Under the pieces are notes generated by a model. It was not told the DNA's origin, did not search any database, and saw nothing but the letters and a program-made list of their open reading frames with translations. Positions 17,968 to 63,511 of a stretch of DNA of 64,000 nt are shown here, one piece after another; the first letter of the stretch is position 1, and each line of letters starts with the position of its first letter. Position numbers and translations under genes: made by a program. Source of the stretch: Blastocystis sp. Blastoise (lineage: Eukaryota > Sar > Bigyra > Opalinata > Blastocystidae); contig JBBPEB010000020.1 in the NCBI GenBank assembly GCA_039096225.1, forward strand, positions 150,001-214,000. Reading direction: 5' to 3'.

Positions 17968-17968
<1 letters not shown>
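16508..17968 (+). pseudogene. Tc1/mariner DD34E transposase with in-frame TAG
   Basis: One continuous frame of 486 codons is broken only by TAG at 17450-17452. The N-terminal ~280 residues hold a helix-turn-helix region (STISRHLRF near 255). The first catalytic Asp is in LFRDETH, immediately before the stop. After it come GRSPVGTKAF and the usual Tc1 core, then YMDNASIHH (second Asp) and, with 34 residues between, MNPIEFIFGAWK (Glu). At the stop the Tc1 family usually has an aromatic or hydrophobic residue, so TAG is most simply a TGG to TAG nonsense change. Downstream reading is undamaged, implying recent inactivation or readthrough. Confidence 0.85.
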
Positions 17969-20898: not shown

Positions 20899-23800
20899 AT
20901 GGATGGTGTTCGACTCTTCACGAAATTTGGGTTTAAAAGACCTGCAGGTATGTTCATTTAAGATGATTTACTACATTCATAGATGATGATTTTTTGTATT
21001 CTCCAGACACATCATCTAATTGTAATACTCAAGTTGATCAAACATCTTTTCTGATTAATCCAGAGAGTGTAACATCAGAGAATGAAACAGTTCTAGATGA
21101 GATTATGAGAAATATAAATAGAAATGTAAATATTTATATTTAAAATAGCAGTATATATAGATAGTTGAATTATATATAACGATATATATATACTTATAAA
21201 TCCATAGACTGTTAAAAAAGCTAAAGAAAACATACTAATCGAAGAAGAGATAGAAGATATTATTTTTTGTGGTTGGAAACAATTAGATATTAGTGAAGAG
21301 AAAATACTAACCATATTCGATATAGTGAATGATGTTCTCCAAATGGTTTCTAGCACTACAACAATAAAAAAACCAAGAAGAGGGCAAGACTTTATTAGAA
21401 GAATACTGAATAGTAACACATTGATGCCAACGTTCTTTAATATTTTTTATTGCTCAAGTTGCCAAAATATTGTTGATTATAACCAAAGTTGTAACATTAA
21501 ATTAGATTCAAGAAGAGTTTGTACTTTGCATAATAATGATAACAACCGTATGTAACTATATTCAATATAATAAGATATATGCATAATATACAAATATTAC
21601 ATATGACATAATTATATTATGTTTATATTATATTATATTTGTACTATCAATTTATAACTTATTATATATTGTTTATATTAAATCAATATTACATATATAT
21701 AATATAATGTTTTATTTAATAGTATATATTAAATATATACTATTATACTATTATACTATTTTTAATATCATTTTATATAATACATATAATAATCTATATA
21801 CACATATCTATAGCTCAACATTTGAAGATACTCCCAATTATTCCTCGTTTAAGGAGTCTTCTTTGTAATCAACAAATTATCCAAGATGTTCATTTATATA
21901 CCAAAAACCAAATTCAGCAAATAGTAGAAAAAGAGGAATTGCAAGATAAAAATATACCTAGCTATATGTATGGTAATAACTTTTCAAAATATGTAAAGGA
22001 AACAATAGAAAATGGTGATTTATTCTTTTTCTTTACAATTACTGCTGATGGCATATCAGTATTTAATGCTCCTTTGAGACAAGATAATAAGACTTCTAAA
22101 CCATTATTGGTCAATCTTCTTAATTATAAGGACTCACGGCAACATGATAGAAGAGAATTTTGGGTATATAGTATTTCATCTTCTGTAGAACTAAATGTAT
22201 CGTTACAGATACTAGTAAAAGAATTTGATTTATTGAAGGAAGGTATTCCAATGATGATTAATATCAATGGTAACATAGAAGAAAGGAGAATTGTAGGAGT
22301 TTTGCTAGAAGTGTATGGAGATACAGCTGAGATCCAAGAACTTGGTCATTTTAGTGGTCCTGCGTCTAATTTTCCTTGTAGGTTTTGTAACCTACGCATA
22401 AATAGAGAAAATGATAATTTTCATGCAGGAATTAAAACATCATATGTTCAAGTCAAATCATTTGTTGCTCCTGAGATACCATCTAACCATGTAGAAGTTT
22501 TTTATCCTCTATCGAGTAAACATAAAACTTGTATACTTCCTGTTACAATTAATGGAATAAATTGCATCAAATATACAAAATTTTTAAAAGGAGAAATTCA
22601 GCAAGATTCAGTAACGAATATATATCTTATTGATAATACAAAAGATCTAATAAAAGAAATAAGAAACAGCCCTTCAGATATATCTAGTATTAATGGGATT
22701 AAAACAATAGAAAGCATATTTGAAAGTCTTAAATACTTTGATGCTGCTACTAGTTTCAACTTAGATCCAATGCATCTATTTAATAATAATGTTGTTTTAC
22801 TTATTTCACTCCTATTAGGATATAATAGAGAGAAGTATATTCAAGTTTTGAATAATCATAAATATAAAAATCCTAATAAAATATTAAATGCATTTCAACT
22901 TTCCCTTGAAAATATCACCATACTACGTAACAGAATTCAAAATATCAATTCTTTCTTTTATAACACAGAAGGACAATTTCGTTTGATTTTTGAAGAAACG
23001 TCATTCTTTAAAATGACATCTCATAGCAGAGTATATTTTGCTTCTAAATTTTACCACTTATTAGTTCAGATTTCAATCAACAAGATTCACTATTGATACC
23101 ATTATTAGATCTTCAAGCTGATATAATAAATATGAGTACTATGAAGAATTATAGAATAACTAGTGAAGTATTGGAAATATTACAGGTTAAAAGTAATATA
23201 TTCATGTTTATGTGTGATACAATTCTTCCTAAAGAATTCATCAATAGTCAGTTACATTCAACGATTCATTTAAGTAAGTGCATACAAAATTCTGGAGGAC
23301 TCCAGTACTGTAGTACGTGGAGATCAGAAAGATACTATTCCAAGATTAAAAGGAACACATTAGGTAGATTATCATTCAATAAATCTGCAATAAATAAAAT
23401 GGCCCAAAAGGAAGTACTAGATTTAAATAATGTTTCACTAAAGAGTTTAAAACAGAATTCAGTTAATACTAATATCTTATCTGAACAACCACAACTACAC
23501 CATATTAATAATGCTTCTAATGATACTGGAATTGATATTTTAGATGAAACAAGTTTCAACTATTTAACTGTACCAAAATATGAAGAATTTAAAGAAATAC
23601 ATTATTATCAAGAATCAACACATAATGTATTTTCTATAAAAGGAATTCGTAGTTACGATGATGACTCGAATAGAATAGACTTCACAGTTTCATTTCTAAA
23701 ATATATAATAAAGATGAATAATGATAATATAAATAGAATCTTATTTTATAACATTCATCCTAATGTAGACACAGTTGAATCAATGTTGAGACACTTAAAT

Positions 23801-24449
23801 TGTGAATCTTCATTAAAAATAGTAATGGAGAATTCAAAGAATTTGAATGTTTACACATATTCAGAAATATTAGTGAATAAAACATTATCGTATACTGTTA
23901 CATTCGAAGATGAAGGTGTAGAACAACTAGATAATTCATACTTAATGTATTATGAAAACAACAACAACATCATTTCAGCTCATCTAGTTAAAGCTTTAAT
24001 GTACATTCAAATAGAAGATCTATTCTTAGCAAAAATACATGAATACCCAGAATCAGAGGTATTAAAGAATGGACTTTTTTATAAAATACCTAATTCGAAT
24101 ATCTCATTATATAATAATGTCTATCAATACGATAAAACATATAAAGATATAAGAAATTTTGTTCCTTCAAATATTATTGTTTGTGATATTCATAATAATA
24201 AAATTAATACCAGAATAGATGACGAAGATTATATAGATGTAATTATTTCTTATTTATATATAATAATATATATATCTATATCTATATTATTAAGTTCATT
24301 TATCTTTCATACTTTAATTATATATTTTATTCTAGAATGAAAATCTTCAAAAGAATAGTACAATAACGAAGGCTACAATTAATTCTAATGAAATCTCAAC
24401 TACAACAGTATTCATTCCAAAATTTTATCAATATATTGATTCCATATAA
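20899..24449 (+). CDS. Transposase_21 (Tnp2/CACTA-like) transposase, copy 1, one frameshift
   Basis: The start is at 20899 (MDGVRLFTKFGFKRP). Exons run from there through ~21060-21127, ~21211-21549 (zinc-like YCSSCQNIVD..SCNIK..CTLHN) and ~21814 onward. The long exon has the family signatures: ITADGISVFN, a KPLLVNLLNYKDS-type block, LLKEGIPMMIN, GVLLEVYGDTAEIQELGHF, SNFPCRFCNL (zinc site), and the DPMHLFNNN acidic motif. A final intron (24238-24337) leads to TAA at 24449. The frame shifts by one base at the T-run near 23050 (SKF/YHLL versus SDFNQQDSLL); copy 2 confirms the downstream frame. It is therefore either a 1-nt deletion or an assembly error. Inverted termini were not found. Confidence 0.75.
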
Positions 24450-28640: not shown

Positions 28641-30769
28641 TGTAGCAAACAAATTAAATATGGTTCAATTTCTATTATTAAATCAATTTCTTCGCTGTTT
28701 TACTAAAAATATCCGGAAAAATTTCTTTTTTTAGTATTTTTGTTTTTTAGTATTTACTTTTATATTACCAACTATTTTCATGCTTAAACAGTTTTCCAAT
28801 ATATATTTTAACACTAAACTACTGTGCCTCACAAGTTTCAGAATAAAAATTAAAAGTTAATTTTCTGTGTATCCATAATTACATTGTGAACTTTTAATAA
28901 ATTGTTGTTTTGCACTTCAGCAGTGCCTTCGTTGTCAAAAATAGTCTAAAGAGTCTTATCTAAAAGACTTTTATTTGATTCTGGGAAAAAATAATTTTTT
29001 TACAGCTTTTGACATAATTTTCTGAGGCGGAACTTTATATTATAATAAAATCAAACGAAAAAAAATGTATAAAACTCTTATGTCCTCTGATATACAATAA
29101 AATATAAAGAGACTCAGTTTTGAACAAGAAAATTATTCCCGTAAATATTTTAAAAATTCAAAACTCTGGTCTGACTGCCCATGGAACAAATAGGCTCGGT
29201 TCATTTTTTTCAGTGTAAAAAAAATATAATTTTTTGACTTTTTGACTGAATTTTGTCTTTGACCCATAGAGGTCTTTTTATTCACTTTTACACGTACTTG
29301 TAACTCTAAGAGGGTCTGAACTTCAAACACAACTATCAAAAATTTAAATATATTGACCCGATGAATTTACAAAATTATGACTTTAAAAAAAAGAAAAACG
29401 TTTTGGATATTGTATAACCCTATAAAAACAAAAAACAATGTCAATTCCATATTAAAATAAGTCTAATAGGGTCTTTGAGTCAAAATCAAAAGTCGACTTA
29501 AAATTTTCGTGAAAATTTTCATTTTTTTTGCCTAAGTCTTTTTTTTATTGAATTATTATTGGATGAATAAATTTTGAACGAGAATTAACCAATCAGAATG
29601 CTATAAAAAGTCAAAAATGCCTATCAGTGATTCCATGTTTTCATTCTGAATACTATTTACATCATCAACATCATTAACCTGAATCTAGTGAAAGTGAGCT
29701 TAAAATATGTTATAAATACATTATTTTGAGTCTCCATGTTTTCTAAACTATTACATTATAAAAAAACTTTATAAATGAAATAACAAAAAAATATTCTAAA
29801 CATAAAAAAAAAAATATTTCTCTGTTTTTATAAAAGAATCATTTTTACACATCGTTTTCTTTAACAAAAGCGATAAATCAATAGATAACTTATTCCAACA
29901 CACATTTCATTTGTAAAAAATTGTCTTCCTCAAATGGATTAGTAACTATTGTAACTAAAGAATTAAAAATAAGTTTTTTTTTAACGTTGACTCATCGAAG
30001 TAACTAAAATTTTACAATAAATAATTACTTATTACTTTTCCAAAATAATAATCATTCTTTAATTACACTAATTTTTAACAATAAGAACCAGTTATAAAGT
30101 TTTTCTAGGTATATATTAAGTCAGAAGATGTTTTTGATTTAGACTTACTATGTTTGCTGTAAATATATTTCTGACAAAGAAAATTACTTACATTAAACTT
30201 TTATTTTATGCATAATAATAAAAGGAAGTGTCTATTTATAACTAATTTATATAACAGAATTGCTATTTATTCAAAACTGATAACAAAACAGCACAAATTA
30301 TAAATATATACTCTTTATTTTGATAAACAACAATTATTTTGTTCTTTATTTCTTTATTTATCCAATAAAAATTATTTTTATAAAATGTTATCCAATAAAA
30401 AAGCTATTTTTTTATTCACGGGAATTAATCTTTTAAAAAGGAGGAAAATACCATGTTTAAGAACAAATCAGAAGAAAATAAGTCATAAAAGAGACATTTT
30501 TATCAGTTTTGAAAAAAAAAACGATATTTTGCTAAAAAAAAATTAAAAAGAGACATGCTTCTCACCAAAATCGAATTTTCAGACACTTTTATCAGAACCT
30601 CTATATAATATTATATATAGAATAATATATATGTATAAATATATATATAGTATTATATATGATATTATATATAGGATCCAATATTTCGAATATTATATAC
30701 AATTATATATATATATAATATTATGTATAGAATTAGATTTATATAAAATATGTTGAATATATATTATAT
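28641..30769. other. AT-rich intergenic stretch
   Basis: The stretch carries only short frames without coding character. It includes one CGGGAAT word at 30419 and one ATTCCCG at 29135. Nothing else can be supported. Confidence 0.45.
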
Positions 30770-31835
30770 TTATTCATACTCAATTTGTAATTGGTTTTCT
30801 TTTATTCTTTTTTTTAACACTATATATTATTATTATATTATTTTACTATATATATATTTTTAAATATAATTTTATATTTTTTTATATTATTTTATATTAT
30901 TTATATTTACTTGTTTTTACTACTTGATAGTCAATTTTTTGGTTTTTTTTTTAGTTTGATATATATGATATTTAATCGATTACATTTCTATATATATATA
31001 TTAGTATAATAATAACATTATTAATAGAAATTTATACAGAAGGGTCGTGAAGACACTGTCTTTTCATAACCCATCCAGAGACATCATCACCTTGAAAGTG
31101 AAACATAAACGGACAATCGGAAATACAGCATTTGTATATAATTCTTCCTTTTTCGGGCTTTTGTATTTTTATTGGATATCCAAGCTTTTGCATTTGTATT
31201 GAAACTTCACTCTTGAGTTGTGACTTATTTTCATACATAATTTGGACTCCATATTTTTTTCATTCTCAAATTTTTTTATTTCTTCACTATTTTTGAATTC
31301 ATCGTAGTTCACTTTAATCAAATCAAAACCTGCTATCATTTTTGGTTGTAGTTGAACTGAATCAATTGCCTAATTATTAAAAAAATAATGAAAATGCGTT
31401 TAATATCGATTTACAGACATTGTTGTTGACAATATATATTAATTAACCTTTTAATAGTCTAGATATAGTCAAAAAACAAATAAATATATTATTTGGTGAT
31501 TTATAACTGCAAATATTATTTTTATAGAGGAAAATCACCAAAAAATCAGGAAAATTAGAATTGTTGTTTTTTAAATGCCTTATTTGAGAGCAGTACTATA
31601 TATTATTACATTATTAATGACTCCAGTCAATTGATACAAGTATCTGAAATATTTATATTATATTTAGTTTAAAAATTCAAGCAATTATATAAAATATGTA
31701 AAATAAAATGATGGTTTTAACTTAGATAGTTATTTTTCTTCATTATTATGAGAATTTATTAATTTTTTTTAATGTCTTAATTAGTATAGGCTTCTTTTGT
31801 GAAATATAATAAATCAAATAAAAATATATTCTGGA
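30770..31835. repeat. Left arm of ~1-kb long inverted repeat
   Basis: The reverse complement of this stretch aligns almost end to end with 42480-43505. Shared landmarks include AATATATAGTG(T/C)TAAAA, AATAAAAGAAAAC, ATAGAAATG(T/C)AATCG, CAAGGTGATGATGTTTCTGG-type coding, ACAA..A(A)TGTCTGTAAATC(G/A)ATATTAAA and the AGAATATATTTTTATTT inner end. The arms are clearly diverged (roughly three quarters identical by eye) with small indels. Confidence 0.82.
31032..31238 (-). CDS. Small zinc-binding domain ORF in left inverted repeat
   Basis: A 68-codon frame contains YKCCISDCPFMFHFQGDD, then GWVMKRQCLHD. The C-x4-C ... W ... C-x-H layout resembles the DNA-binding zinc domains of MULE/FAR1/FLYWCH-type transposases. 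A second diverged copy lies at 43175-43291 in opposite orientation. The frame may extend upstream across the Lys-rich stretch to ~31370 if spliced or shifted. It could be a terminal gene of the element duplicated in both arms, or the remains of an older transposon. Confidence 0.5.
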   Translation of the reverse strand: MYENKSQLKSEVSIQMQKLGYPIKIQKPEKGRIIYKCCISDCPFMFHFQGDDVSGWVMKRQCLHDPSV

Positions 31836-31838
31836 GTT

Positions 31839-31965
31839 AATAATACTTCCGCTCTACGAGCTCCAGTAATTCACTCGATATAAGCCTTATAAAGGAAAAT
31901 CATACTGATTTTCCTTTTAAGGCTTATAGACGAGTGCTGGAGCTCTCGGCTGAAGTATTAATAAA
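31839..31965. mobile_element. 127-bp palindromic foldback MITE
   Basis: An imperfect hairpin is centred at 31904: AAAGGAAAATCA-TAC-TGATTTTCCTTT at the core, continuing through TAAGCCTTAT/TTAAGGCTTA, CACTCG/CGAGTG, GAGCTCCAG/CTGGAGCTC to AATACTTCCG/CTGAAGTATT. It lies exactly at the inner edge of the left inverted-repeat arm. Non-coding. Confidence 0.85.
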
Positions 31966-32310
31966 ACTTCCTAACCAAGGGGAAGGGTATAAAAATAGGG
32001 TTTTAAGTAAGAGTAATCAGGATTATTCAAACGGAGTGTTTTGATTGGCTTAGACGGGGTGTGCGTCATCGGTTTCTTAAAATCTAATATTAAAAAATAA
32101 TTTTTGGTTAAATGGTTAAATGGTTATGAACCAAATAACCAAATAACCCCCTATTATAAAACAATTTGGGAAAATTAAATTTTTTTTTCAGTCAAAAAGT
32201 AGTGTTTTAAGCAAAATTTTAAACAAAACAAATAAATAACTAGATAAACTTAATAAATATATAAAATATAAATAAAAAAAAGAAAAAAAAAAGAAAAAAA
32301 AACAAGAATC
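31966..32310. other. Spacer inside the virus-like element
   Basis: No gene. It includes short direct repeats (TGGTTAAATGGTTAAATGGTTA near 32106, ACCAAATAACC twice near 32130-32150) and, at 32221-32236, one copy of the AAACAAAACAAATAAA intergenic motif of the element, just 3' of the 164-codon gene. Confidence 0.55.
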
Positions 32311-32805
32311 CTAGATTCTTGAACCAGAATACAAGGCCTTATACACAAGACCTTGTATTCTGTGATCAGCCTTGCGTTTGGCTGATCTTTCCTTGAGCTC
32401 CTTGTCCATTTTCTCAGCCATATCAGCTCTAGAGAGGGAATTTGGCCCTCTAGGGTGATAAAAGCTGATGTCCCGAAGGACTGGACCTCTCCAAGGAGCT
32501 CCAGGATAGGGAAATATATAACCATCATCCCAGTCAAGGCTCTCAACACAGTTTAACTCTCCATTCTCGTCGAATGAAAAATCATTCGGCGAATAACAAG
32601 GTGCTACATGTTTCAGTAAGCACCTAGGAAAGATAAACTGGTTCCCTGATGGAACGGTGGCTTCAGTAGGTTCAATTTTAATAATTCCCTCAGCATCCAA
32701 TGGCAGAACCTCGTCGCAAGAGGAGGAGCTGGGGGATATAGATATAATAGACTCTTCTGACTCCGAGTCAAAAGAGGAAATGAAGGTAAGATCAATAATA
32801 GACAT
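32311..32805 (-). CDS. 164-residue protein of unknown function
   Basis: A complete frame from ATG at 32805. The N-terminus is acidic and Ser-rich (SFDSESEES, SPSSSSCDE). The middle is Pro/aromatic-rich (CYSPNDFSFDENGEL, DWDDGYIFPYPGAPWRG). The C-terminal ~50 residues are a charged helix (ADMAEKMDKELKERSAKRKA). It is visibly GC-richer than everything around it, suggesting a different origin or selection. The last codons contain an inverted repeat (CAGAATACAAGG / CCTTGTATTCTG, 32326-32365) that could fold at the 3' end of the message. It lies inside the inverted repeats and shares the 3' motif with the other genes of the element. No family was recognised. Confidence 0.6.
   Translation of the reverse strand: MSIIDLTFISSFDSESEESIISISPSSSSCDEVLPLDAEGIIKIEPTEATVPSGNQFIFPRCLLKHVAPCYSPNDFSFDENGELNCVESLDWDDGYIFPYPGAPWRGPVLRDISFYHPRGPNSLSRADMAEKMDKELKERSAKRKADHRIQGLVYKALYSGSRI
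32326..32365. terminator. Hairpin at the 3' end of the 164-codon gene
   Basis: Inverted arms CAGAATACAAGG and CCTTGTATTCTG lie 15 bp apart, overlapping the final codons and followed (minus strand) by poly-T. A second small palindrome, AAGAATCCTAGATTCTT (32305-32321), overlaps the stop codon. Possible transcript-end structure; a role is inferred only. Confidence 0.4.
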
Positions 32806-33656
32806 TTTTATATAATAAATAAATAATACAAAATCAAAAAATCAAAATAAATCACCATAGGAGCGTTATATTCATGGCGGAAATTTTTTTTAGCACTGTG
32901 GAGGTGTACTCTCCCCAGGGTTTTTTTTTTTCACGGTTTTGATCAATATTGACAGAGAAAAATGGATTTTTCACTTTTACTAGAATTTTTTATAGTAGAA
33001 TTTAGTATTTCTTATTTTTAATAGGGAAGGAGTGGTCGTATGAAGATGAAAGTTATATGGTTGAACTCAGGAGCTCATTTCCAGTCGAATGGTGTAATCC
33101 GCTTGTTGATACGACCATTAATTCGTATAGCTGAACTTGGACAATCACATTGAAATTGATTCATGAATACTTTGGGAATTCCCGTGAATTTTGTTTTAAA
33201 AAATGTCATTTTCAGCGCACATGTGTGCACGTGCAGCCACGTGAAGCCACATGTGTTCATCTGACATGACGAAACACCAATTGACATGACAAATGATTGC
33301 CAATGAAGAGTGAGAATTAGGGAATGAGAGAATTGTGTTCTAGTGAACTTAACGTCACACTAATACACACTTACCGGCACACTATTGTGAACTTACCAAT
33401 GAAGGAAAGTTAATTGTGTTTCAACTTACCAAGTCAACTAACCAATGGGAAAGTTAATTGTGTTTCAACTAACCGAAACACAAAAATAGTCAAATTGATA
33501 GTATTTTTCACGGGGATCACGAATTTGATATTATTTTTTGTTTATTTTGAATATTTCACTATGAAAAATGTGAATGAAAATTGGATTATAATTTGTTATG
33601 ATATAATGTAATTTCATTTTAATTTCTAGCAATTTCTTAGAAATTCTTTGTAAAAA
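32806..33656. promoter_or_regulatory. Non-coding region upstream of plus-strand cassette genes, with direct repeats
   Basis: The stretch between the 164-codon gene and the plus-strand pair includes a 23-bp direct repeat (GGAAAGTTAATTGTGTTTCA..., at 33404 and 33448, 44-bp period) and several ACTTACC(A/G) words (33370-33430). It also has an imperfect CACGTG-rich patch near 33225-33255. This would be the natural place for a promoter, origin or recombinase-binding site, but that is inference. Confidence 0.4.
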
Positions 33657-33989
33657 ATGTCAGAAAAAGTAAAAACAAATTGCTTTAAGTTAATATTTGA
33701 AAAAATAATTGAAATATTTTCTAAAAGTAGTGAACTAGTAAGTTGTATAATAGAAAATATTAATTTTAATTGTAACTGTTGTTCTCCTTATAAAGTAGCT
33801 AGATTACATCACTTAAGAGAGTCTCAATATAAAATAGAAAAAATGTTAACTGATATAAAAGATCAAGCAAAGGATATACATGAAAATACATTAGATGAAA
33901 CAGAGTCTATTGAAATAATAAATACAAAATTAGATTTACTAATAAAGACTTTGTCAGAAATATCAAAAAATATTAATTGTTTTAAGTAA
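33657..33989 (+). CDS. Small coiled-coil protein, unknown
   Basis: A 110-residue frame (MSEKVKTNCFKLIFEK) ends in TAA nine bases before the tyrosine recombinase start. The C-terminal ~65 residues have a heptad-like pattern (IEKMLTDIKDQAKDI, IINTKLDLLIKTLSEI), and a Cys cluster NFNCNCC lies near residue 40. It is probably co-transcribed with the recombinase. It lacks any recognised domain and could be a regulatory or virion protein. Confidence 0.6.
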   Translation: MSEKVKTNCFKLIFEKIIEIFSKSSELVSCIIENINFNCNCCSPYKVARLHHLRESQYKIEKMLTDIKDQAKDIHENTLDETESIEIINTKLDLLIKTLSEISKNINCFK

Positions 33990-33998
33990 TTTTCAGTC

Positions 33999-35798
33999 AT
34001 GTATAAACGTGGGGATTCTGATGAAGAATGTGAAGATTTTTTTATGAACTGTATTCGTGATTTATATCATTTTAAACGTATCCGTGAGTCTACTTATGAG
34101 GTATATATGCGTAATATGCGTACCATTTGTTCTAAGTTTCGTTCTGCCGCCAATATTAATTTACGGGAAAGTGTGCGTCAGCCTGATTTAGCGCCATACT
34201 TCTGTGTAGAGGCGTTAGGTCATCCTGAATATATTTCCAGTATATTACTGAATTCAGCTACTAGGGCTAATGGTCAAAGTGGTGGTTTATCCAAGACATC
34301 TGTCGCAAACTACTTAGCTATGTTATCATTTATAATGGAAAATATAGATATATTAACAGATGATAGGCAGATATTGCGTTCTCCCGTGTTTTTAAGGTCA
34401 AATATTCAGAAATTTAAGACATTATGGGTAGCTCTACAGCATGACGCTACTACCGCTAGACATTATGAGTATACCGATAGAATAACTGAGTCTGGGGCTC
34501 AGTGGGATGTTTTAATAAATAAAACAAAAAATGATTATTTAAAGAATCCAAATAATTTATTTTATGTAAATAGTTATTTATTAGTATTATCTTATGATTG
34601 TTTATGTTGTCGTAATGATTATGGTGATTGTAAGATATATACTCGTAGTGCTAAAGTGCCGTCAAATCTGAAAAGATCTACAAATTATTTAAATTTAAAT
34701 GATTTAACGTTAAATGTAAATGATACTAAGAATGTTTTTCAGATCGGTATTAACCGTGTAAAAACAAAACAAGAAGTATCTGAAGAATTCTTAAATGTTT
34801 TAGCAAGATCCCTACGGTTATTTCCAAGAGATCAATTGTTTGTAAATGAGTTAACATATGGTTATATAGGAGAAAATAAATTTGGAGAATATATAAAGTT
34901 ACATTTAGGTGATATCTTTACATATAAAGATACTGTAAATGGTCAAATAGTCGAAAAACCGTTAATAACAGGGTGTGATGTCATCCGTCATTTATTTGCC
35001 CAATGTTATTATAAAATATATTTACGTTTAACAGAAAGTGGAAATCCCCAGTTAGAAGTCCGTGGTCAACAGATCTTTGAGAAAAGTGTAGAGAAGATGT
35101 TACATGCGACTTCAACTCATTTAGAACAGTATATAACACCCTTTTTAGAACGTGTAAATAAAAAGAAAAAACAGTTAGATAGAAAATTTAGACCAATACA
35201 AATCAATGGTAGATCTCTATTTAAAGAGTGGTTAGTACAAGATAAAGAGAAAGATGTGTTTCTCTATAAAAGATTTTTAGAACGTATCTTAGAATATCAT
35301 GAAGATTATACAGATGTATTTGGTGATGAAAATTTTGGTCAGTATCTTAGTGAGGGTCAAAGCGTATCTTTTCGTATCTTAGATGATTTTCCAAAATTTA
35401 AACAAGGATTATTGGAGATATATCAACAGTTTAAAAAAGGTGGTTTTCCCGAGAGAATTAATTTACAAAGACAGTTACCTGAGGGTTGTCCATATAAAGA
35501 AGTAGTATGGAATACTGAAGATCGTGATAGATATATAAAATATTTAAAAAATAAGTTATCTGTGCGTCAAATCGATAAAGATACTCGTACAGGTGTGATG
35601 ATACCTCGAGAAAGTCAGGCATTACATAATATGAATAAAAGAAGTAGTGAGTATGACGCTTATGTCGAAGATGGTAAAGAACACCCTTATGCTACACGTA
35701 GTCAGTCTAATATAGACAAAAAACCAAATATAATACGTATAAGAATACCTCAAAAACACCATCATGGTGCAGGTATATTTTTAAAATTAAAATATTAA
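33999..35798 (+). CDS. Tyrosine recombinase 1 (integrase-like)
   Basis: A 599-residue protein. Catalytic-domain marks of the tyrosine recombinase family are visible in order: Arg205 in CCRNDYGDCKIY (box I), Arg330 in CDVIRHLF (box II), His369 and the probable nucleophile Tyr378 in MLHATSTHLEQY, with H-x8-Y spacing. The residues before ~190 look like a helical SAM-like core-binding domain. A C-terminal extension of ~200 residues ends in HHGAGIFLKLKY, a tail not seen in ordinary integrases and reminiscent of the Gly-rich cleavage motifs of the element's other proteins. The H of the usual H-x-x-R is absent. It should cut and rejoin DNA to integrate, excise or resolve the element. It is convergent with recombinase 2. 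Intronless, ATG start well placed. Confidence 0.8.
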   Translation: MYKRGDSDEECEDFFMNCIRDLYHFKRIRESTYEVYMRNMRTICSKFRSAANINLRESVRQPDLAPYFCVEALGHPEYISSILLNSATRANGQSGGLSKTSVANYLAMLSFIMENIDILTDDRQILRSPVFLRSNIQKFKTLWVALQHDATTARHYEYTDRITESGAQWDVLINKTKNDYLKNPNNLFYVNSYLLVLSYDCLCCRNDYGDCKIYTRSAKVPSNLKRSTNYLNLNDLTLNVNDTKNVFQIGINRVKTKQEVSEEFLNVLARSLRLFPRDQLFVNELTYGYIGENKFGEYIKLHLGDIFTYKDTVNGQIVEKPLITGCDVIRHLFAQCYYKIYLRLTESGNPQLEVRGQQIFEKSVEKMLHATSTHLEQYITPFLERVNKKKKQLDRKFRPIQINGRSLFKEWLVQDKEKDVFLYKRFLERILEYHEDYTDVFGDENFGQYLSEGQSVSFRILDDFPKFKQGLLEIYQQFKKGGFPERINLQRQLPEGCPYKEVVWNTEDRDRYIKYLKNKLSVRQIDKDTRTGVMIPRESQALHNMNKRSSEYDAYVEDGKEHPYATRSQSNIDKKPNIIRIRIPQKHHHGAGIFLKLKY

Positions 35799-35864
35799 GT
35801 TGTTTTAAAATATTAAAAAATAGTTTTGTTAACTAAACAAATAAATAAAAAAGAAAATTAAGAT
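35799..35864. terminator. Convergent 3' region with shared intergenic motif
   Basis: A 66-bp gap lies between the stop codons of the two opposing recombinases. It contains AACTAAACAAATAAATAAA at 35831, a copy of the AACAAAACAAATA-type motif seen at the 3' ends of other genes of this element. Probably a bidirectional transcript end. Confidence 0.45.
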
Positions 35865-36962
35865 TTATTCAGACCAACACTGACTTAAGTTTTTACACCA
35901 ATTAGTAAATTCTTCTTTTTTAGAATCCATATCAATAGGTATATCTTCATCATCAATAGGAACAGGAGTAACAGTAAGTTGATTATCAGTTAAATTAGTT
36001 AAGAAATCAGTAGTAGTAATAGACATATAGTTATTAATATGAGTTTTAAGGGAATGTCCAAGATCTAAAGCCAATTGATTCATTTCTTCAAAGTTATTAC
36101 CATGAGTAGAGCAATAGAGTTTACGTAGACTATTAATAGTAATTCCCCCGGGAATAACACGTCTCATAATATTTTTAACATATTCAGAGAAACGTTTAGG
36201 AGAATAACATTCATTTTTCCCAGGTTTATGAAATAAATAACGACTTGTAGGATTTAAAGTAAATAATTCATGAAGATCTGAATTAAATTCAGAACAACAC
36301 TTAAGTATACGTTCACCATAAGTTTTTGCTGTTTTATATTCAGTAACATGAATTTCATAAGAAGGATTTTCAGCAGTATTATCTTTATCTGGAATAATAA
36401 ATGAAGTAGATTCAGGTTTTTCAGGTTTTTCTTTATAAATAATCAAATTACCATAATCAGCACGAGCAGGAGGCATTAAGACATATAAATCAATTAATAA
36501 ACGTAACGGATCAGCAACAGAGCAAGTTTCTCTAATTTTCTTGAATTTTTCTAAAGAGCAATTGCTATTTTTCAGACATTTTAAGGTAGAATCAGTTTTA
36601 GCTTTCAGATGATCAGTGTAAATATTATTAATAATAGAATACATGGATTCCCAGCTTTTTATAGTATAAAGGCGTTTCTTGATAGACTTATCTTCTTTAC
36701 AGATAAACATAATTAATTCAGTAATTTTCTTCAGCATACTTAGACTAGGATTATATCTTTTACGTAAATAATCAATGAAAACCGTGGGAGTATAGATCAT
36801 TTTCATAAATAATTTCTCCGGAATTGGATTAATAAATTGCTTGAAATTGCTTAATTGCGTATTTTTCCAATCATCAGTCCACTTAGCTACATGAATAATC
36901 ATAAAGTAAATAGAATTATAATGCTTATTATTCATTTTTTCTACGGGAATAGTACAATTCAT
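35865..36962 (-). CDS. Tyrosine recombinase 2 (integrase-like)
   Basis: A 365-residue protein. Box I is PPARADYGNLIIY (Arg167), box II TINSLRKLYCSTHG (Arg280), then LGHSLKTHINNY with His303 and probable nucleophile Tyr312. Spacing H-x8-Y and the R-x-DYG box match recombinase 1, so the two are distant paralogues within one element, but overall similarity is low. A candidate catalytic Lys lies near residue 210. The length and PP-x-R-x-DY box resemble recombinases of algal-virus, virophage and Polinton-like elements (family knowledge, not searched). It is the last gene of the leftward set. Ends TAA. Intronless. Confidence 0.85.
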   Translation of the reverse strand: MNCTIPVEKMNNKHYNSIYFMIIHVAKWTDDWKNTQLSNFKQFINPIPEKLFMKMIYTPTVFIDYLRKRYNPSLSMLKKITELIMFICKEDKSIKKRLYTIKSWESMYSIINNIYTDHLKAKTDSTLKCLKNSNCSLEKFKKIRETCSVADPLRLLIDLYVLMPPARADYGNLIIYKEKPEKPESTSFIIPDKDNTAENPSYEIHVTEYKTAKTYGERILKCCSEFNSDLHELFTLNPTSRYLFHKPGKNECYSPKRFSEYVKNIMRRVIPGGITINSLRKLYCSTHGNNFEEMNQLALDLGHSLKTHINNYMSITTTDFLTNLTDNQLTVTPVPIDDEDIPIDMDSKKEEFTNWCKNLSQCWSE

Positions 36963-37000
36963 TTTTAAAAAATCGGAAAATCAAAATAAATATGAAATCT

Positions 37001-38740
37001 TTACCAATTTATTTCTCGGAGAATTTGGTTTCTCGTTTTCTTACGTAGGGTTCGTCGACGTCGACGCATACCTGACGCGACATCGATGTTGCTTATGTCA
37101 TTTTCTTTATTTACCCAATCACCGTCGTCTTTTGGTTTCTCGGATTCTCCTTTTGATTTACTTGGTGTCGTCATATAAGAGTAGAATTGACCTAAGTAGC
37201 TCTTATTATTCCACTCATCATTCTCTTTTTTCCGTTTTGTTTCTTCTTCATCTACTTTTTTATGGGCTTCAGCTCTTCTTGCTTTAAAGCCATCTCTACG
37301 TTTTTGATTAATTTCTTCAGTATGCTTAATTCTTTCAGCACGTTCAGCACGTTTTTGTTCAATTTCAGATTTTTTATCATCACTCAATTGACTTAAAGTA
37401 TCTTTATTAAATTGTTTTTTAGGTTTAGTTACTTTACGTCTAGATTCTCCAGTTTCCACAAGATCTAATTTATTCTTTTGATCTGGTTTTTCTTCAGTTC
37501 ATTTATTGCCAGTAACTTCTCCCACGGTTTTATTATAAAGTTTTTTACCAGCATTAGTAACCATATCTGATAGACTACCTTTAATTTTCTGTAAAGTACC
37601 TTGTTTAGCTTTTTCATATTCAGCATCTTTCAGCTTTTGTTTTTGAGCTTTAATTTGGCTATTATTATATTTATCAATTTTTTTATTTTCAGCTTTAGCT
37701 AATGCGTTAAAACCATCTTTTAAATTATCAACATTGTTCATACGTTTAGTGACATTTAGCTTACCTTCATCTGTTTTTAATTCATCACTTTTTATATAAG
37801 ACTTATGAATACGTTTTTTTGTTAACTTACTCATTTTATCAGTCATACCCTCATATTGTGTATTTTTTAAAGCTTTTAAATTATTTAACATAGTTTTTGG
37901 TGCTTCAGTAGAATCTCCAAAACGAGAATAATATTCCCTTTTAATTCCATTTTTTGTATGTATGATTTTCCCATTAATATTCTTCGAAACAGTATCTAAT
38001 TTTTCTTTGATTTTCCCAGGAATATTTGTAGCATAATCAATACCATTTAATAATTTACTAGCACCTTTAACTGTTTTAGTCCCAAGGTTATAAACAGATT
38101 TTCCAGTATTATATGTTTTTGATAATAAATTTTTGGCGGTATCCCACCAACCGCTTCCTTCGGGATCTAGTATACCACAACCACTTTTATCTATTTTAAT
38201 ATATTTATTAAAATTTTCAGATGTTAATAAAGAATCATATTTATTTTCTGAATCAGGATTATTTCGTCTGAATCTAGGGTAATCAACGTTAATATATCTT
38301 TGTAGACGTTTTACGGTATGCCTGGGGATTCTGCCATCTGGCAGTAGTCCTCCTCCAGATCCCCCTGGTTCTGGCTCTTTCTCATCTTCTTCGGATTCTC
38401 CCTCTGGTTCTCCCTCTGGTTCTCCCTCTGGTTCTCCTTCTGGTTCTACTTCTGGTTCTACTTCTGGTGTTTCCGCGGGAATTTCAGCTTTTGGTTCTGG
38501 GGGTGGGGGCGGTGCTGCTTGCCTAGCATTACCCATATGATAACTACGTGTATGCATATCATTTTCTTCTTTTTCAACTAATTTAAGACTATTAGGTATA
38601 ATATCATAAATAATAGGTTGTGCTACGACTATTCTAGGCATTTTATGGGGTCTAGAATAACTTAACCATTTTTCTTTTTTCCCAAGGTTATTACAATGAA
38701 ATGAACCTGGGCATGGACTACCAATTGGTGCACTTTGCAT
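37001..38740 (-). CDS. Structural-type protein with EGSG motif, split by TGA
   Basis: Two frames in the same phase are separated by a single TGA (37499-37501): 413 codons (38740-37499), then ~166 codons to TAA at 37001. The second part has no ATG near its beginning, so this is best read as one ~580-residue protein interrupted once. In order: a proline/acidic low-complexity region (five EGEP units near 100-114), GGSGGG at 126-131, GCGILDPEGSGWW at ~188-199, then amphipathic helices (TYNTGKSVYNLGTKTV), a Lys-rich region, and in the second part a coiled Lys/Glu region and an Arg/Lys-rich tail (MRRRRRTLRKK). Basic tails and G-S-G sites recall adenovirus-type core or minor capsid proteins processed by a viral protease. 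The other element genes end in TAA, which makes this TGA stand out. Function inferred. Confidence 0.6.
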
Positions 38741-38800
38741 TTTTTTTTTAAATAAATAAAATATATAAACAAAACAAATATAAAATAAATTATTGATTAT
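38741..38800. terminator. Intergenic spacer with shared AAACAAAACAAATA motif
   Basis: AAACAAAACAAATATAAAAT at 38767 matches the motif at 40888, 35831 and 32221. It lies 3' of one minus-strand gene and 5' of the next, so it could be a transcript end or a promoter. Confidence 0.45.
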
Positions 38801-40516
38801 TTAAAATAACGAATCATTAAAATTAATAGAATCACCAATATGATTCCATGAATATGATAATCTATCTGAAAAAGGATAGTGACCAAAAATAGTCATAAAA
38901 GATTGAAGTAAATCTTTTCTACTATCTTCTTTATCTTGTGATTGTTTTATAATATTATAAAATTTTTGAACTTCATAGTCTAATGGTTTATTTACAATAT
39001 CATAACTAGAAAGTAATTTTTTAATATCTTGGAAAGTCATAATATCTTTAAAATAATTACAATGTTCAATAAATGCTTGTATTCTAAAATTTGGTCTTTC
39101 TTGAAAGTTACTTGAATTACTTGGTAAATCATTATATTGATTATTTTCATATTGCCAATAATTTTTCAAGAATTCTTTACCTGGACCATGAATTTTATTT
39201 TCATTAAAATCATCTAGTTGTTGTTGATATTCATGTATTTTTTTATGAACTTGATCAACTAATTTATTATAATAATTTACAGTATTTTGAGCTATTTCAG
39301 AAGAAACATATTTTATTCCTTTTTGTGTTTTAGAAGCAGCTACTTTAACACCATTTGTCACTATCTTAGATGATTCTCCTAAAACATTACCAGTATATGA
39401 AATACCATTTTTTGCTTTTTCATAATAAATAGGTGTATTTTTTACAATTTTATTACCAACATCTAAAGATATTTTACCAATTGCTTTAGATCCAATAATA
39501 ATATGAGTAGTTGCAGTTTGTGTAGCTTTAATTAAAAAGTCTTTAACTTTTAAAGCAGCGTTATAGATATCTTCTTTAGTAAGATTTTCCATAAGATTTT
39601 CTGTTAAATGATTTGCACGAGTTGCTAAAGTAAAGAACTGTGTAGCATTAATAATATAACAATAACATTGTTCAAATTTTGTTTTTTCATCTTGAGTATT
39701 CGAACATATATCACCAGTAATATAATGTCTAAATAGTTGAATCAATAAATCTAAATCAACATTATTTGTATCAATATCATCATCATCACTATTTTCATTT
39801 ATTGGATAATCTATCATTGGTACTTGTGGTTGGAAAGATATATGTGGCATATTATTATTGGCTACTTTATTATTTGTGTTTGCAGGAGTTTGTTTATTTT
39901 CAAAAACAAAAGGAACAACACCATTATCAAATGTAGGTAATTCTTCATTTGTGTTTTCCGGAGAATTAAAATCAATTTGTGGAACATTATTGTGTTCTAT
40001 AGATCCTCTTAGATGACCATGAGGTTGTTGGGGGATTTGTGTTTCTGTTTCTTTATTAAAATCATAATTTTCTGGTACTACTGTTAGATTCATTTTTTCT
40101 GGAGGATTTATTATAGGAGTATCTATTGAAGGATTTATGGAAATATTTGGTTTTATGGGGATAAGTGTTGTTGAAGATTCTACTGTTTTTGGAGAATCTA
40201 TTGGTGGTTCTACTGGTTTTGGAGAATTTATTTGTGGTTCTAATGGTTTTGGAGAATCTATTTGTGTTTCAATAAGGTTTTGTGTTTCAACAGGGATTTG
40301 TGTTTCAACGGGAATTGAGGGTTTTACGAAATCTATTGGTGGTGTTTCAATTGGTTTAGGTTTGTCATTTTGTTTAAATGGATTTGATGGTTTAAATGGA
40401 TTAAATGGTTTAAAATAATCAAACCAACCATGTTTTTTTCCAGTTTCCTCATTTTTAACATTATTTAAAAAATCAGGCGGTACTTTTTCTAAACTACTTA
40501 TACATAAAATATTTAT
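38801..40516 (-). CDS. Virion-like protein with repeat-rich N-terminus; start disrupted
   Basis: The ATG-initiated frame is 430 codons (40093-38801), but the same frame stays open ~140 codons further upstream to ~40516 with clear coding character: WFDYFKPFNPFKPSNPF, then repeats of the type P(V/I)E(T/P)QI(D/N)SPKP. The only upstream ATG (MYK at ~40509) is out of frame by one base, so a 1-nt deletion in an A-run next to the start is likely, or initiation is non-AUG. The body has Asn-rich and helical stretches (GKISLDVGNKIVKNTP, amphipathic repeats ~200-270) like tail-fibre or minor-capsid proteins. No domain recognised. The opposite-strand frame over 40137-40418 is an artefact. Confidence 0.55.
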   Translation of the reverse strand: MNILCISSLEKVPPDFLNNVKNEETGKKHGWFDYFKPFNPFKPSNPFKQNDKPKPIETPPIDFVKPSIPVETQIPVETQNLIETQIDSPKPLEPQINSPKPVEPPIDSPKTVESSTTLIPIKPNISINPSIDTPIINPPEKMNLTVVPENYDFNKETETQIPQQPHGHLRGSIEHNNVPQIDFNSPENTNEELPTFDNGVVPFVFENKQTPANTNNKVANNNMPHISFQPQVPMIDYPINENSDDDDIDTNNVDLDLLIQLFRHYITGDICSNTQDEKTKFEQCYCYIINATQFFTLATRANHLTENLMENLTKEDIYNAALKVKDFLIKATQTATTHIIIGSKAIGKISLDVGNKIVKNTPIYYEKAKNGISYTGNVLGESSKIVTNGVKVAASKTQKGIKYVSSEIAQNTVNYYNKLVDQVHKKIHEYQQQLDDFNENKIHGPGKEFLKNYWQYENNQYNDLPSNSSNFQERPNFRIQAFIEHCNYFKDIMTFQDIKKLLSSYDIVNKPLDYEVQKFYNIIKQSQDKEDSRKDLLQSFMTIFGHYPFSDRLSYSWNHIGDSINFNDSLF

Positions 40517-40522
40517 AAAAAT

Positions 40523-40870
40523 TTACTTTTTTTTATGTGGCCAATCTTGTTGTGATGAAAATTTTCCAGCATTATTTGCTACTGTTTTAGCCATCTCATT
40601 TGCACGTGCTTCATCACCTTCTTTTCTAGCTGAATTCATTTCAGCCAAAAATATATCTTTATCCGATTGATTATCTTTAAGATATTTTTGCATATTCATC
40701 ACTTGACTCATGGAACTTTGTGCTGATGGATCATGTGCTATCGGCATCATGGGCTGTTCATCGGAACACAAATAACTATTGGGAAGCCAAGGATCCCATG
40801 ATTGTTTTTTAAAATTACGTTGTAAGATATCTTGTAACGTAACATAATCATATCTTGAATTTTGATCCAT
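40523..40870 (-). CDS. 115-residue protein, unknown
   Basis: A complete intronless frame (MDQNSRYDYVTLQDILQ) ends in a Lys tail and TAA. It contains a WDPWLPNSY segment and a Met/Gln-rich amphipathic helix with NSARKEGDEARANEM near the end. It sits between two structural-looking genes and was probably acquired with them. It could be a scaffold or cement-type protein; that is a guess from context. Confidence 0.55.
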   Translation of the reverse strand: MDQNSRYDYVTLQDILQRNFKKQSWDPWLPNSYLCSDEQPMMPIAHDPSAQSSMSQVMNMQKYLKDNQSDKDIFLAEMNSARKEGDEARANEMAKTVANNAGKFSSQQDWPHKKK

Positions 40871-40935
40871 AATATTATTTTTTTTTATAACAAAACAAAT
40901 AAAAATATAAAATAAAATTTAAAAAATAAATAAAT
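40871..40935. terminator. Intergenic spacer with shared AACAAAACAAATA motif
   Basis: AACAAAACAAATAAAAATAT at 40889, followed by AAAATAAAATTT. It lies 3' of the 424-codon gene and just upstream of the 115-codon gene. Confidence 0.45.
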
Positions 40936-42210
40936 TTAAATAAGTCTAAACATTTTTAACATTTTTTTAGTAACAGATAAAACAATCTCACTTTTCTTAA
41001 TATCAGGAAGTGATGCAACACTACCAGCATAACAATCTGATTTAGATTTTTTTGTTCCAGATGCTTTAGGTAAAGCAGCAACAGCAGGTACATGCAACTT
41101 AATATAAGCTTCAATAGCTACTTTAGCTACTTCAACAATTAATTTAGTTACATAAGATATAATAGTACCAATAGTTTTCCATTTACTTGTTTTATTTTTT
41201 TCTAATTCAGCTTGAATAGCTACATGTACAAGACTTTTAGTATCTACTGGTTTATTTTCACCTTTAAGTTTATCAATTAAATCCATAGCTTCATTATCAT
41301 TAATATCTAAATCTTCAGGATCAATTGAATTTAATAAAACATTAGATACATCATTTTTTGTAACATTTGTATCTTCAAATTGAATTTTATCGATTTTTAT
41401 ATCACCTAAACGATCTTTAATATAATCAAGTTTATCAGATGTAGTTAATTCTTTAGGTTTTTCTTTTTCATCTGATTTAGAATCATCTGAATCTTTATTT
41501 TCAGAACTTTTCAGTTTATCATTAGCAGCTTTAAGTTGATTTATAAATTTTCTTTTAAGACGTTTACTATTTAAATCATGCATAGACATACGTAACCCTC
41601 GTTTAACTTGTGGAGTATCAGATGAATTCAGTAAATCTAAATCTTCTTGATAACTTGCATTTTCTTCTACTCTACTTAATGGTTTAGTAGGTTCATCTTT
41701 ATCCCACCAATTTTTATTTACCCAAGTAGATTTAACTAAATGTTTTTTACCACCACCATAATGTAAACCACTACCTTCTGAATCGTTGTTTTCCGCTGAA
41801 TTTTTGATTATTCGTTTATTATTTGGGAAAGTTCTAGCTACATTTAAAAATGGATTTGAATGATAATTAGCTTTTAATAACGACTGAAATAAACTATGAG
41901 TGGGTTCATTCTGTTCTTCATTAAGATTTACATTCACGGGAATATTTGCGGGTTGACTTGGAGTTATTCCTACTCGAAAACGTCTTTTTTTACCATAATT
42001 TTTTAGTGAATCCTGATATTTTTGTGCAACCATTTCTTTGGCATATTCTTCAGGTATATGATATTCTTTTAATTCATCAACTTGATCATGGAGAACCTGA
42101 TAATCATATTCAAGAGTTTCTCTAATATCATCATAACTCTCACCCATTCGTCTATAAATATGTTTATTCAGTAAATCATCATTAGCTAAAGCATCATTTA
42201 TTTCTTTCAT
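40936..42210 (-). CDS. Minor-capsid-like protein with EGSGL motif
   Basis: A 424-residue intronless frame, first gene of the leftward set. The N-terminal ~75 residues are a charged helix ending KNYGKKRRFRVG. DSEGSGLHYGGGKK lies at ~143-156, the counterpart of the PEGSGWW motif in the TGA-split gene. A Lys/Asp/Ser low-complexity linker follows (~225-260). Near residues 335-372 is a long amphipathic-to-hydrophobic helix (ISYVTKLIVEVAKVAIEAYI) that could insert in membranes, a feature of protein-VI-like minor capsid proteins. Alternatives include an anchoring or scaffold protein. Function inferred; coding status firm. Confidence 0.6.
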   Translation of the reverse strand: MKEINDALANDDLLNKHIYRRMGESYDDIRETLEYDYQVLHDQVDELKEYHIPEEYAKEMVAQKYQDSLKNYGKKRRFRVGITPSQPANIPVNVNLNEEQNEPTHSLFQSLLKANYHSNPFLNVARTFPNNKRIIKNSAENNDSEGSGLHYGGGKKHLVKSTWVNKNWWDKDEPTKPLSRVEENASYQEDLDLLNSSDTPQVKRGLRMSMHDLNSKRLKRKFINQLKAANDKLKSSENKDSDDSKSDEKEKPKELTTSDKLDYIKDRLGDIKIDKIQFEDTNVTKNDVSNVLLNSIDPEDLDINDNEAMDLIDKLKGENKPVDTKSLVHVAIQAELEKNKTSKWKTIGTIISYVTKLIVEVAKVAIEAYIKLHVPAVAALPKASGTKKSKSDCYAGSVASLPDIKKSEIVLSVTKKMLKMFRLI

Positions 42211-42479
42211 TGTTTGATCCCATGATTTATATATGAGGCATTGTTAGAAATACCCAAAAAAACCATAATTATTTTAACCTGCCCAAAAAAAAATCGAATT
42301 GTTAGAAATACCCAAAATCTTTCAAAATTTTTGTTAAAATACCCAAAATTTTTACAAAATTGGTAGAAATACCCAACTGTTTATTTTAGACTCTAAACGA
42401 TTGGTGGTTTGAAAACACAAATTCTTCATAGCCAATTAAAATTCTTTTTATTTCTTTTGTCATTATTAGAAAAAAATAT
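42211..42479. repeat. Four copies of a (TAG)AAATACCCAA word upstream of the leftward genes
   Basis: GTTAGAAATACCCAAAA at ~42243 and 42301, TTAAAATACCCAAAAT at ~42335 and GGTAGAAATACCCAACTG at ~42361. They cluster in ~130 bp between the first leftward gene and the right inverted repeat. They could be a promoter or a protein-binding array. Confidence 0.6.
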
Positions 42480-43505
42480 ACTCAAGAATATATTTTTATT
42501 TTCTTTATAAAGCTTACATAAAATTTTTGTAGTAATTAAAACATAAGAAATATTTTAATAGATTATTATAATAATTTAGAAAAGTAGTTATTTAATTTAA
42601 GAGAAGCATTTTTATTTACAAATTAAATATAATTATGTCAAATTTTTAAATTAAGGATAGTATAAATACTTCAGGCACTTATATCGATTGATTAGTGTCA
42701 TTTATAGTGTAATAATATATTGTATTGCTCTCGAATAAAGCTTTTAAAAACTACAACGTAAGTTCTCATGATTTTTCATTAATTAATCACTATAAAAATG
42801 AAATTTGTTGTCCAGAATCACAAGAATATACTTTATTTTAATTTTGACATATTTAGACGATTAAAGCTTTAATTACTGCATATTTAACAACAAAGATATC
42901 TGTAAATCAATATTAAATTCATGTTAATTATTTTTATGTTATAATTTGGTAACTGATTCAGTTCAGCCACAACAAGAAGTGGAAATATGTTTTTGTTTGA
43001 TTAAGGTGAACTATCATAAGTTTAAAGATAGTGAATAAATAACAAAATTTGAGACTGTAAAAATATATGGAGTCAAAATTATGTATGTAAAAAGTTTCAA
43101 CTAGAGAATGTAGTTTTACTATAAATGTAAAAGCTAGGGTATCGAATAAAAAAACAAAAAACCCAAAAAGAAGACTTGTTTACAGATGTTTCATTTCAAA
43201 TTACCCGTTTATGTTCCATTCCCAAGGTGATGATGTTTCTGGATGGGTAGTCAAAAGATATTGTTGTCACGACTCTTCTGAACAAACTTAAATAAATAAA
43301 TTATACTCTTATAATAACATATTTATAGAAATGCAATCGTTTGTATATATTATATATCAAATGAAACAAAAAGCAAAAAATAGATTATAAGTTGTTAAAA
43401 AATGTTAAAAATAAATTAAATGATTTAAAAGATAATACTAAACAATATATAGTGCTAAAAGAAAGAATAAAAGAAAACAAATTAGACATATCATATGAAC
43501 TATTA
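42480..43505. repeat. Right arm of ~1-kb long inverted repeat
   Basis: Aligns with the reverse complement of 30770-31835 over nearly its full length. The arm includes a diverged copy of the small zinc-domain coding sequence. Divergence between arms is substantial. Confidence 0.82.
43175..43291 (+). pseudogene. Diverged zinc-domain fragment in right inverted repeat
   Basis: The frame LVYRCFISNYPFMFHSQGDD, then SGWVVKRYCCHDS ends in TAA and matches the left-arm ORF, but the second zinc-ligand Cys is replaced by Tyr, and the upstream frame is broken. Orientation is opposite to the left copy. Confidence 0.65.
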
Positions 43506-43920
43506 ATATTTTTAATCAAGAATATATATATATGTATTACATGATTCTACATAAATATATTAATATATTAGATTTTCTATTTTCTACACAATATTTAATA
43601 TATATAAATTTATATATATATGTATACATGTATACTATTCAATACATATGTATATCTATTCTATATACATATACAATTCTATATATATATATATATATAT
43701 AGCATTCTATACATATGCTTATTTATAATATATTATAGAATTCTAATATATCCGATTAAGTATATATATATATTCAATATATATATAATATATATTTTTC
43801 TATATATGTTATTCTTCATACTAATAAAAGTAACATATATACACAATTCTATTTATTGTTTTATATATCAATATATATATAATTCTATATATCAAATATT
43901 GTGTATAGCGTTTTAAAAAA
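43506..43920. other. (TA)-rich stretch
   Basis: Dense TATATA and TATTCTATA repeats with no gene. It lies between the right inverted-repeat arm and the purine tract. Confidence 0.6.
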
Positions 43921-63400: not shown

Positions 63401-63443
63401 TGGATATTATGTATTTTAATATTATTATCATTATTATTATTAC

Positions 63444-63511
63444 TCTTATGCTCTATAAGGTGAGAGGCTATCATAATTAGATAGCAATCAGGTTCAACTC
63501 CTGACATAAGT
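63444..63511 (+). tRNA. tRNA-like sequence (anticodon-like AAT)
   Basis: Same 68-nt plan as 52323-52390: acceptor CTTATG/CATAAG (6 of 7 pairs), CT spacer, D-stem CTC/GAG with loop TATAAGGT, anticodon stem CTATC/GATAG with loop ATAATTA (AAT, Ile-type), 3-nt variable region, T-arm TCAGG-TTCAACT-CCTGA. Probably a tRNA or tRNA-derived repeat. The short variable region and C8 are unusual. Confidence 0.45.

Follow-up and report, generated by a model that had tools for sequence, protein, structure and literature searches.

We report that a compact, intronless block in the genome of Blastocystis sp. Blastoise, which encodes two tyrosine recombinases (TR1 and TR2), is, with a probability of roughly 85%, the left-hand portion of a larger, virus-like provirus that was later split by a transposon. 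The block lies in a stretch of 64,000 nucleotides (the window; C28:150001-214000) of contig JBBPEB010000020.1, designated here as C28; coordinates without a contig name are window positions. Blastocystis is one of the most frequent protists in the human and animal gut. The assembly consists of 34 contigs (33.3 Mb), among which C13, C14, C15, C16, C22, C23, C24 and C31 are the other contigs mentioned below. An earlier note, made from the window's sequence, had described the block as a virus-like element that pairs two divergent tyrosine recombinases with structural-looking proteins between inverted repeats. The integrated virus-like element with its two recombinases and structural-type proteins withstood our analysis, as its gene set recurs as a unit; the proposed borders did not.

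Results

Searching the host assembly for further copies, a check that the earlier note had proposed, revealed three families of proviruses (A, B and C). TR1 gave 29 genome matches, 25 near full length and four partial, and because we read the latter as two split copies, we count 27 TR1-bearing insertions (4 in family A, 20 in B and 3 in C); TR2 gave 28 matches (4, 21 and 3, respectively). The two intact proviruses measured were a 25.4-kb copy on C14, with end repeats 99.2% identical over 365 columns, and a 25.6-kb copy on C24, with end repeats 98.0% identical over 715 columns. Since the gene set recurs together in the same genome, the recombinases and the structural genes are not separate, unrelated insertions, the alternative that the earlier note had raised against itself. 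The 40 family-B end repeats scored were 98-100% identical to the C24 end repeat, and for this reason we conclude that family B spread recently.

The inverted repeats of about 1 kb that were thought to enclose the block are real and slightly longer than claimed (30612-31837 versus 42480-43715; 73.6% identity over 1257 columns), but they do not bound the element. Both arms are members of a dispersed host repeat with at least 18 long copies, a lower bound that includes both arms and comes from scoring 40 of 198 candidates; a copy on C31 matches the left arm at 84% identity, and one on C22 matches the right arm at 97.7%. We rejected the arms as viral ends, as they are host-repeat copies and the right one lies in a later transposon. 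Sequence comparison identifies the left arm (30612-31836) as a non-viral repeat copy that served as the integration site of the virus. The match to C31 ends at 31838, where the viral terminus starts, and the bases that come next in the C31 copy reappear just outside the right terminus of the virus, at C28:256270. The sequences on either side of the provirus match adjoining segments of the C31 repeat (the right flank with a score of 172, against a shuffled maximum of 41). The virus therefore inserted into a copy of this repeat on C28. Judged from these alignments, the true ends of the provirus are at about 31837 on the left and at C28:256269, about 42 kb past the window, on the right. The left terminal inverted repeat (31838-32174) pairs with sequence running leftwards from C28:256269 (85.2% identity over 338 columns), and the right end repeat was located at C28:255907-256269 by an end-repeat search of the genome. 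The two termini share changes that are absent from the C14 copy. End-repeat divergence is 15% in this provirus, 2% in the C24 copy and 0.8% in the C14 copy, and because its end repeats diverge most, we regard it as the oldest of the three.

The provirus is split by a non-viral, host transposon-like insertion of 22.6 kb that extends from 42235 through the end of the window at 64000 to C28:214816 (C28:192235-214816) and includes the right arm of the inverted repeat at 42480-43715. It has inverted ends and is flanked by a 9-bp target duplication, TTTATATAT, at 42226-42234 and C28:214817-214825; a piece of its interior gave 20 long matches genome-wide, itself included. A second insertion starts near C28:220.26k, where similarity to the C14 copy ends.

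Beyond the 22.6-kb insertion, the same provirus continues with genes for a candidate packaging-type ATPase (348 amino acids, C28:215345-216391; Walker A-like motif seen by eye, and gene order), a 216-amino-acid protein that is a minor capsid candidate (C28:216490-217140), two capsid-like proteins recognised by size and position, which are paralogs of 432 (C28:217181-218479) and 542 (C28:218578-220206) amino acids, a protease-like protein (C28:247649-248074; motifs and order), a 468-amino-acid homolog (C28:248230-249633) and a primase-helicase homolog (C28:251913-254930). C28:224001-255800 was covered by homology search only. The statement in the earlier note that the element is without visible replication genes thus holds inside the window but not for the provirus as a whole. 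The primase-helicase matched TIGR01613 in family B (E 1e-8) and DUF5906 in family C (E 1.8e-4), both under the curated cut-offs. The best Pfam match of the candidate ATPase was DEAD (E 6e-4, below cut-off), and it has 28 matches in the genome. Size, gene order and motifs are the basis on which we infer the names capsid, protease and ATPase. The minor capsid candidates (216/217- and 773/812-amino-acid proteins) matched no Pfam family above cut-off, PDB profile searches of the element proteins gave unrelated matches or none, and an Rfam scan gave nothing useful. The smaller capsid-like protein has 87 database relatives (18 of them aligned), and four of those listed are from the Blastoise genome. 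Family A also encodes a Dam-type methylase (PF02086, 2e-37; TIGR00571, 5e-47), with homologs in family C. The ratio of nonsynonymous to synonymous substitution rates (dN/dS), in which constraint before and after integration is mixed, was 0.15 for TR1 and 0.27 for TR2 against C14; against C14 or C13, the ATPase gave 0.32 and the capsid-like genes gave 0.6-0.65.

TR1 (599 amino acids, 33999-35798, plus strand) was recognised by its catalytic motif and its homology to TR2, and TR2 (365 amino acids, 35865-36962, minus strand), which lies tail to tail with TR1, by its catalytic motif. That they are two divergent tyrosine recombinases was upheld: the R-K-R-H-Y residues, assigned from motifs, are invariant in 12 aligned TR1 sequences (out of 120 listed proteins; 162 found) and in five aligned TR2 sequences. 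A motif-pattern check recovered the TR1 motifs at 8/8 TR1 loci, while four of eight TR2 loci gave TR2 motifs, the other four gave the neighbouring TR1 frame instead, and the lysine pattern matched none. A profile comparison with hhalign indicated that TR1 and TR2 are homologous (probability 96.4%, E 1.2e-9). TR2 matched the PHROG 216 integrase (E 2e-4), the sole library match of either protein to a recombinase. The genes are separated by 66-69 bp in family A, by about 9 kb in B (on C24) and by about 4.8 kb in C (on C15 and C23). The window's TR1 and TR2 are only about 41% and 31% identical to their family-B counterparts; both genes are nonetheless kept in all three families. In database searches, TR1 had 162 relatives, four of those listed being from the Blastoise genome, and TR2 had two matches, the window's own protein and one kin. 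The TR1 relatives are mostly of a 628-amino-acid type, and those of TR1 and of the capsid-like protein are mostly unnamed proteins from contigs of up to about 24 kb with the tags ena/lgn, which are probably metagenomic. Three scans of IMG/VR, with TR1, a capsid-like profile and a TR1 profile, found no relatives.

Imperfect palindromes of about 110-130 bp are present at every terminus examined in families A, B and C. At the left terminus of the window provirus, the palindrome (31837-31964) begins with TTAATA (31837-31842), and position 31843 opens a recombinase-type arm, ATACTTCCG. All three families share AT(A/T)CTTC(C)G as their outermost arm. Fold z-scores of six termini ranged from -3.9 (B) to -15.5 (C). 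Four family-A termini were compared, of which the window provirus supplied two; 9 of 53 pairs had both partners changed, 99% of cells were paired, and the covariation score was reached in 0/500 shuffles. Correction of the palindrome during replication could give the same compensatory pattern. At the nine proviruses read by eye (three A and six B), no target sequence of 3 bp or longer was seen to be duplicated, and because of this, joining by a tyrosine recombinase fits better than joining by an RVE integrase. TA(A/T)TA precedes the arm at one or more ends in all nine and at both ends in three (also by eye), a pattern that may be partly chance because the host is A+T-rich.

The block itself was described as compact and intronless, and long open reading frames (ORFs) without introns do occupy about 76% of 31838-42238, counting a 164-amino-acid ORF (32311-32805, minus strand) that has no homolog in the genome slices compared and is a doubtful gene. 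Upstream of TR1 lies a conserved 110-amino-acid protein, an ORF with homologs (33657-33989, plus strand). The remaining genes are on the minus strand. EGSG motifs, one of the features that had made the proteins look structural, are present in p413 (413 amino acids, 37499-38740), a structural-type protein, and in p424 (424 amino acids, 40936-42210). p413 has 574-amino-acid homologs on C14, C13 and C23, and an additional stretch of about 0.5 kb ahead of TR2 aligns with its kin gene; because p413 is shorter than these homologs and this sequence lies alongside, it appears truncated by mutation. p430 (430 amino acids, 38801-40093) is an amphipathic protein with no homolog in the genome slices compared, and p115 (115 amino acids, 40523-40870) has a 121-amino-acid homolog on C14 and matching frames in families B and C. 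The p424 frame stays open as far as the transposon junction, and a 173-amino-acid ORF at C28:214781-215302 extends into transposon sequence; because of that open frame, p424 is probably the 3' part of a split gene, with the 5' part at C28:214781-215302.

Further features of the region were observed. The 22.6-kb transposon contains long GA- or CT-rich simple repeats and a tRNA-Ile call (63442-63512), and C16 holds a near-identical match to its interior piece. The second insertion (C28:~220261) begins near CAGTGCC, reminiscent of hAT-type transposon ends. The dispersed host repeat (30612-31836) contains a short Cys/His-containing protein piece reminiscent of the N-terminal DNA-binding part of MULE transposases; a Pfam scan of this piece from the window gave no match. 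ORFs at 11962-12632, 16508-17968 and 21723-24340 resemble Harbinger-, mariner- and other transposase genes by eye only. At C23:15078-20250, a family-C terminus (palindrome from 20119) begins where family-A similarity stops (20118), a junction that suggests integration of one virus into another. A family-A right-type terminus at C28:288035-288397, 91% identical to the C14 end and with no left partner among the end-repeat matches, is possibly a remnant.

Discussion

The recurrence of the gene set, the matching termini and the interrupted host repeat point to a virus-like provirus of which the block is the left part. Several observations weigh against this reading. The provirus is not intact: p413 is short, one gene is split and the 468-amino-acid homolog contains one internal TAA. 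Particles, expression and recombination would be predictions from the gene content, and the element is known by sequence only. TR1 matched no recombinase family in library and profile searches; TR2 had a sub-threshold Pfam match to CTLH, and the best 60 of its 159 PDB matches were histone H2B. The family-C TR2 matches are interrupted by TAA in 3/3 cases, though an ORF of 311 amino acids is open on C15. The Pfam and PDB matches of the ATPase and the protease were below threshold or unrelated, their names following motifs and order; the capsid-like proteins had no match in Pfam, NCBIfam or PDB profile searches, and we count their dN/dS against the reading as well. In the palindrome test, shuffles reached the number of pair types in 135/500 and the both-sided pair count in 2/500, and a 2-bp TA duplication is readable at 4/9 proviruses. 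Finally, one of 200 random pieces of the window scored 222, above the 172 of the right flank (the next scored 167 and 165); this piece is presumably part of the same host repeat.

In the mechanism that we propose, the encoded tyrosine recombinases would recognise the terminal arms and the hairpin built on them, and would join viral DNA to A+T-rich host sites; the primase-helicase would copy the genome, and the ATPase would package it into capsids built of the two capsid-like proteins. We think it most likely that TR1 and TR2 act jointly on the unlike halves of each end, like XerC/XerD, a hypothesis to which we give somewhat less than an even chance and which we rank below the anatomy of the element. 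More broadly, these elements of Blastocystis might represent a lineage of eukaryotic DNA viruses whose integration depends on a dedicated pair of homologous tyrosine recombinases and on terminal hairpins that are asymmetric and folded, without producing a longer target duplication. Such a design would resemble XerCD and attC, our searches did not turn it up for any eukaryotic DNA virus, and the lineage would have relatives in many public sequence sets; we put this forward tentatively and consider it, as a whole, rather unlikely.

The same virus may instead divide the roles, one recombinase integrating and the other resolving dimers or being structural or regulatory, with the palindromes serving only as binding sites. 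TR1 is longer than TR2, most of its aligned sequences carry a basic tail, and in family B some 9 kb separate the two genes, as such a division would allow; both proteins, however, keep the catalytic set at the low dN/dS values given above. We treat this division as a serious possibility, albeit not one that we favour.

It is improbable that the palindromes are replication hairpins of a hairpin-telomere virus, one recombinase being a telomere resolvase. The terminal palindromes in three families, their fold z-scores and the compensatory changes in family A agree with this explanation, but both flip and flop forms would be expected. All 40 B-type end repeats scored (from 44 candidates) and all seven A-type end repeats matched in a single orientation, with alignments that began no more than 10 bases into the query, five further A-type rows being the palindrome matching itself. 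This single orientation therefore argues against flip/flop replication hairpins, and we rejected hairpin-telomere replication as a first choice.

Still less probable is a large, non-viral Crypton- or DIRS-like tyrosine-recombinase transposon with captured genes. Two recombinases, dispersed copies, knowledge from genes alone and an unconfirmed capsid fold are compatible with it, but the families share the ATPase, the two capsid-like paralogs, the protease-like gene and the primase-helicase, and the size of about 25 kb with terminal inverted repeats matches integrated protist viruses as described in PMC10120064. A satellite or reduced virus with the 1.2-kb inverted repeats as its ends, as the earlier note suggested and as the repeats flanking a block with no capsid, ATPase or replication gene visible inside the window might imply, is hardly credible and was rejected: the repeats are host repeats, the right arm being within the later transposon, and the missing ATPase, two capsid-like, protease-like and primase-helicase genes, with a matching right terminus (C28:256269), follow on the same contig in the orientation and order seen in kin.

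The virus-like provirus most resembles Polinton-like viruses (PLVs). PLV insertions are about 15-30 kb with frequent terminal inverted repeats (PMC10120064), PLVs with a tyrosine recombinase and a primase-helicase have been described (PMC4642659, PMC7805220, PMC10120064), and either a tyrosine recombinase or an RVE integrase is described as carrying out integration (PMC10120064, PMC7805220, PMC4642659). The Blastocystis element shares the size class (25.4 and 25.6 kb), the terminal inverted repeats, integration in a protist, a candidate packaging-type ATPase, a superfamily 3 (SF3) primase-helicase, detected through matches under curated cut-offs, and tyrosine recombinases, recognised by motif and profile homology; as in those PLVs, no Pfam family of pPolB or RVE integrase was found among the element proteins scanned, a set that covered all but some small ORFs. 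It differs from PLVs, as far as these sources go, in that each of its three families carries a homologous pair of recombinases, in its palindromic ends, in two capsid-like paralogs for which no match to known capsid proteins was detected, and in a Dam-type methylase (family A, with homologs in C). Because the capsid fold of the candidates, assigned by size and position, is unconfirmed, PLV membership is unproven.

Polintons/Mavericks share the size, the inverted repeats, and the ATPase and protease-like genes; they differ in pPolB and RVE integrase, neither of which was matched here, and in that their insertion duplicates several target bases, whereas none of 3 bp or longer was seen at the nine family-A and family-B proviruses read in Blastocystis. 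Virophages of the mavirus and Sputnik type share a protist host, integration, and protease-like and ATPase genes. In contrast to them, the element gave no match to a mavirus-like pPolB or RVE among the proteins scanned, its capsid-like proteins have no Pfam-level match, and no giant virus is known in Blastocystis; its own capsid-like, ATPase and primase-helicase genes also speak against a gene-poor satellite.

The suggestion of an undescribed lineage fits so far: the literature covered, with few subscription papers and no bioRxiv preprints, contains no such elements in Blastocystis and reports no DNA virus of this host. Titles and abstracts found with "two tyrosine recombinases", virus and integrase mentioned no eukaryotic virus's own pair. 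Some large insect DNA viruses have more than one tyrosine recombinase gene. New here are the host, the paired recombinases and the palindromic termini. If the pair and the ends prove to be integration machinery, they would constitute a new recombination design, and the element may represent a little-known route of virus entry into a genome, by a matched recombinase pair and hairpin-like ends. Three bacterial systems are alike in working principle only, with no membership claimed: XerC/XerD, which are paired recombinases; Tn916-type elements, which have unlike short junction sequences without a longer duplication; and the integron attC, which is a folded asymmetric site.

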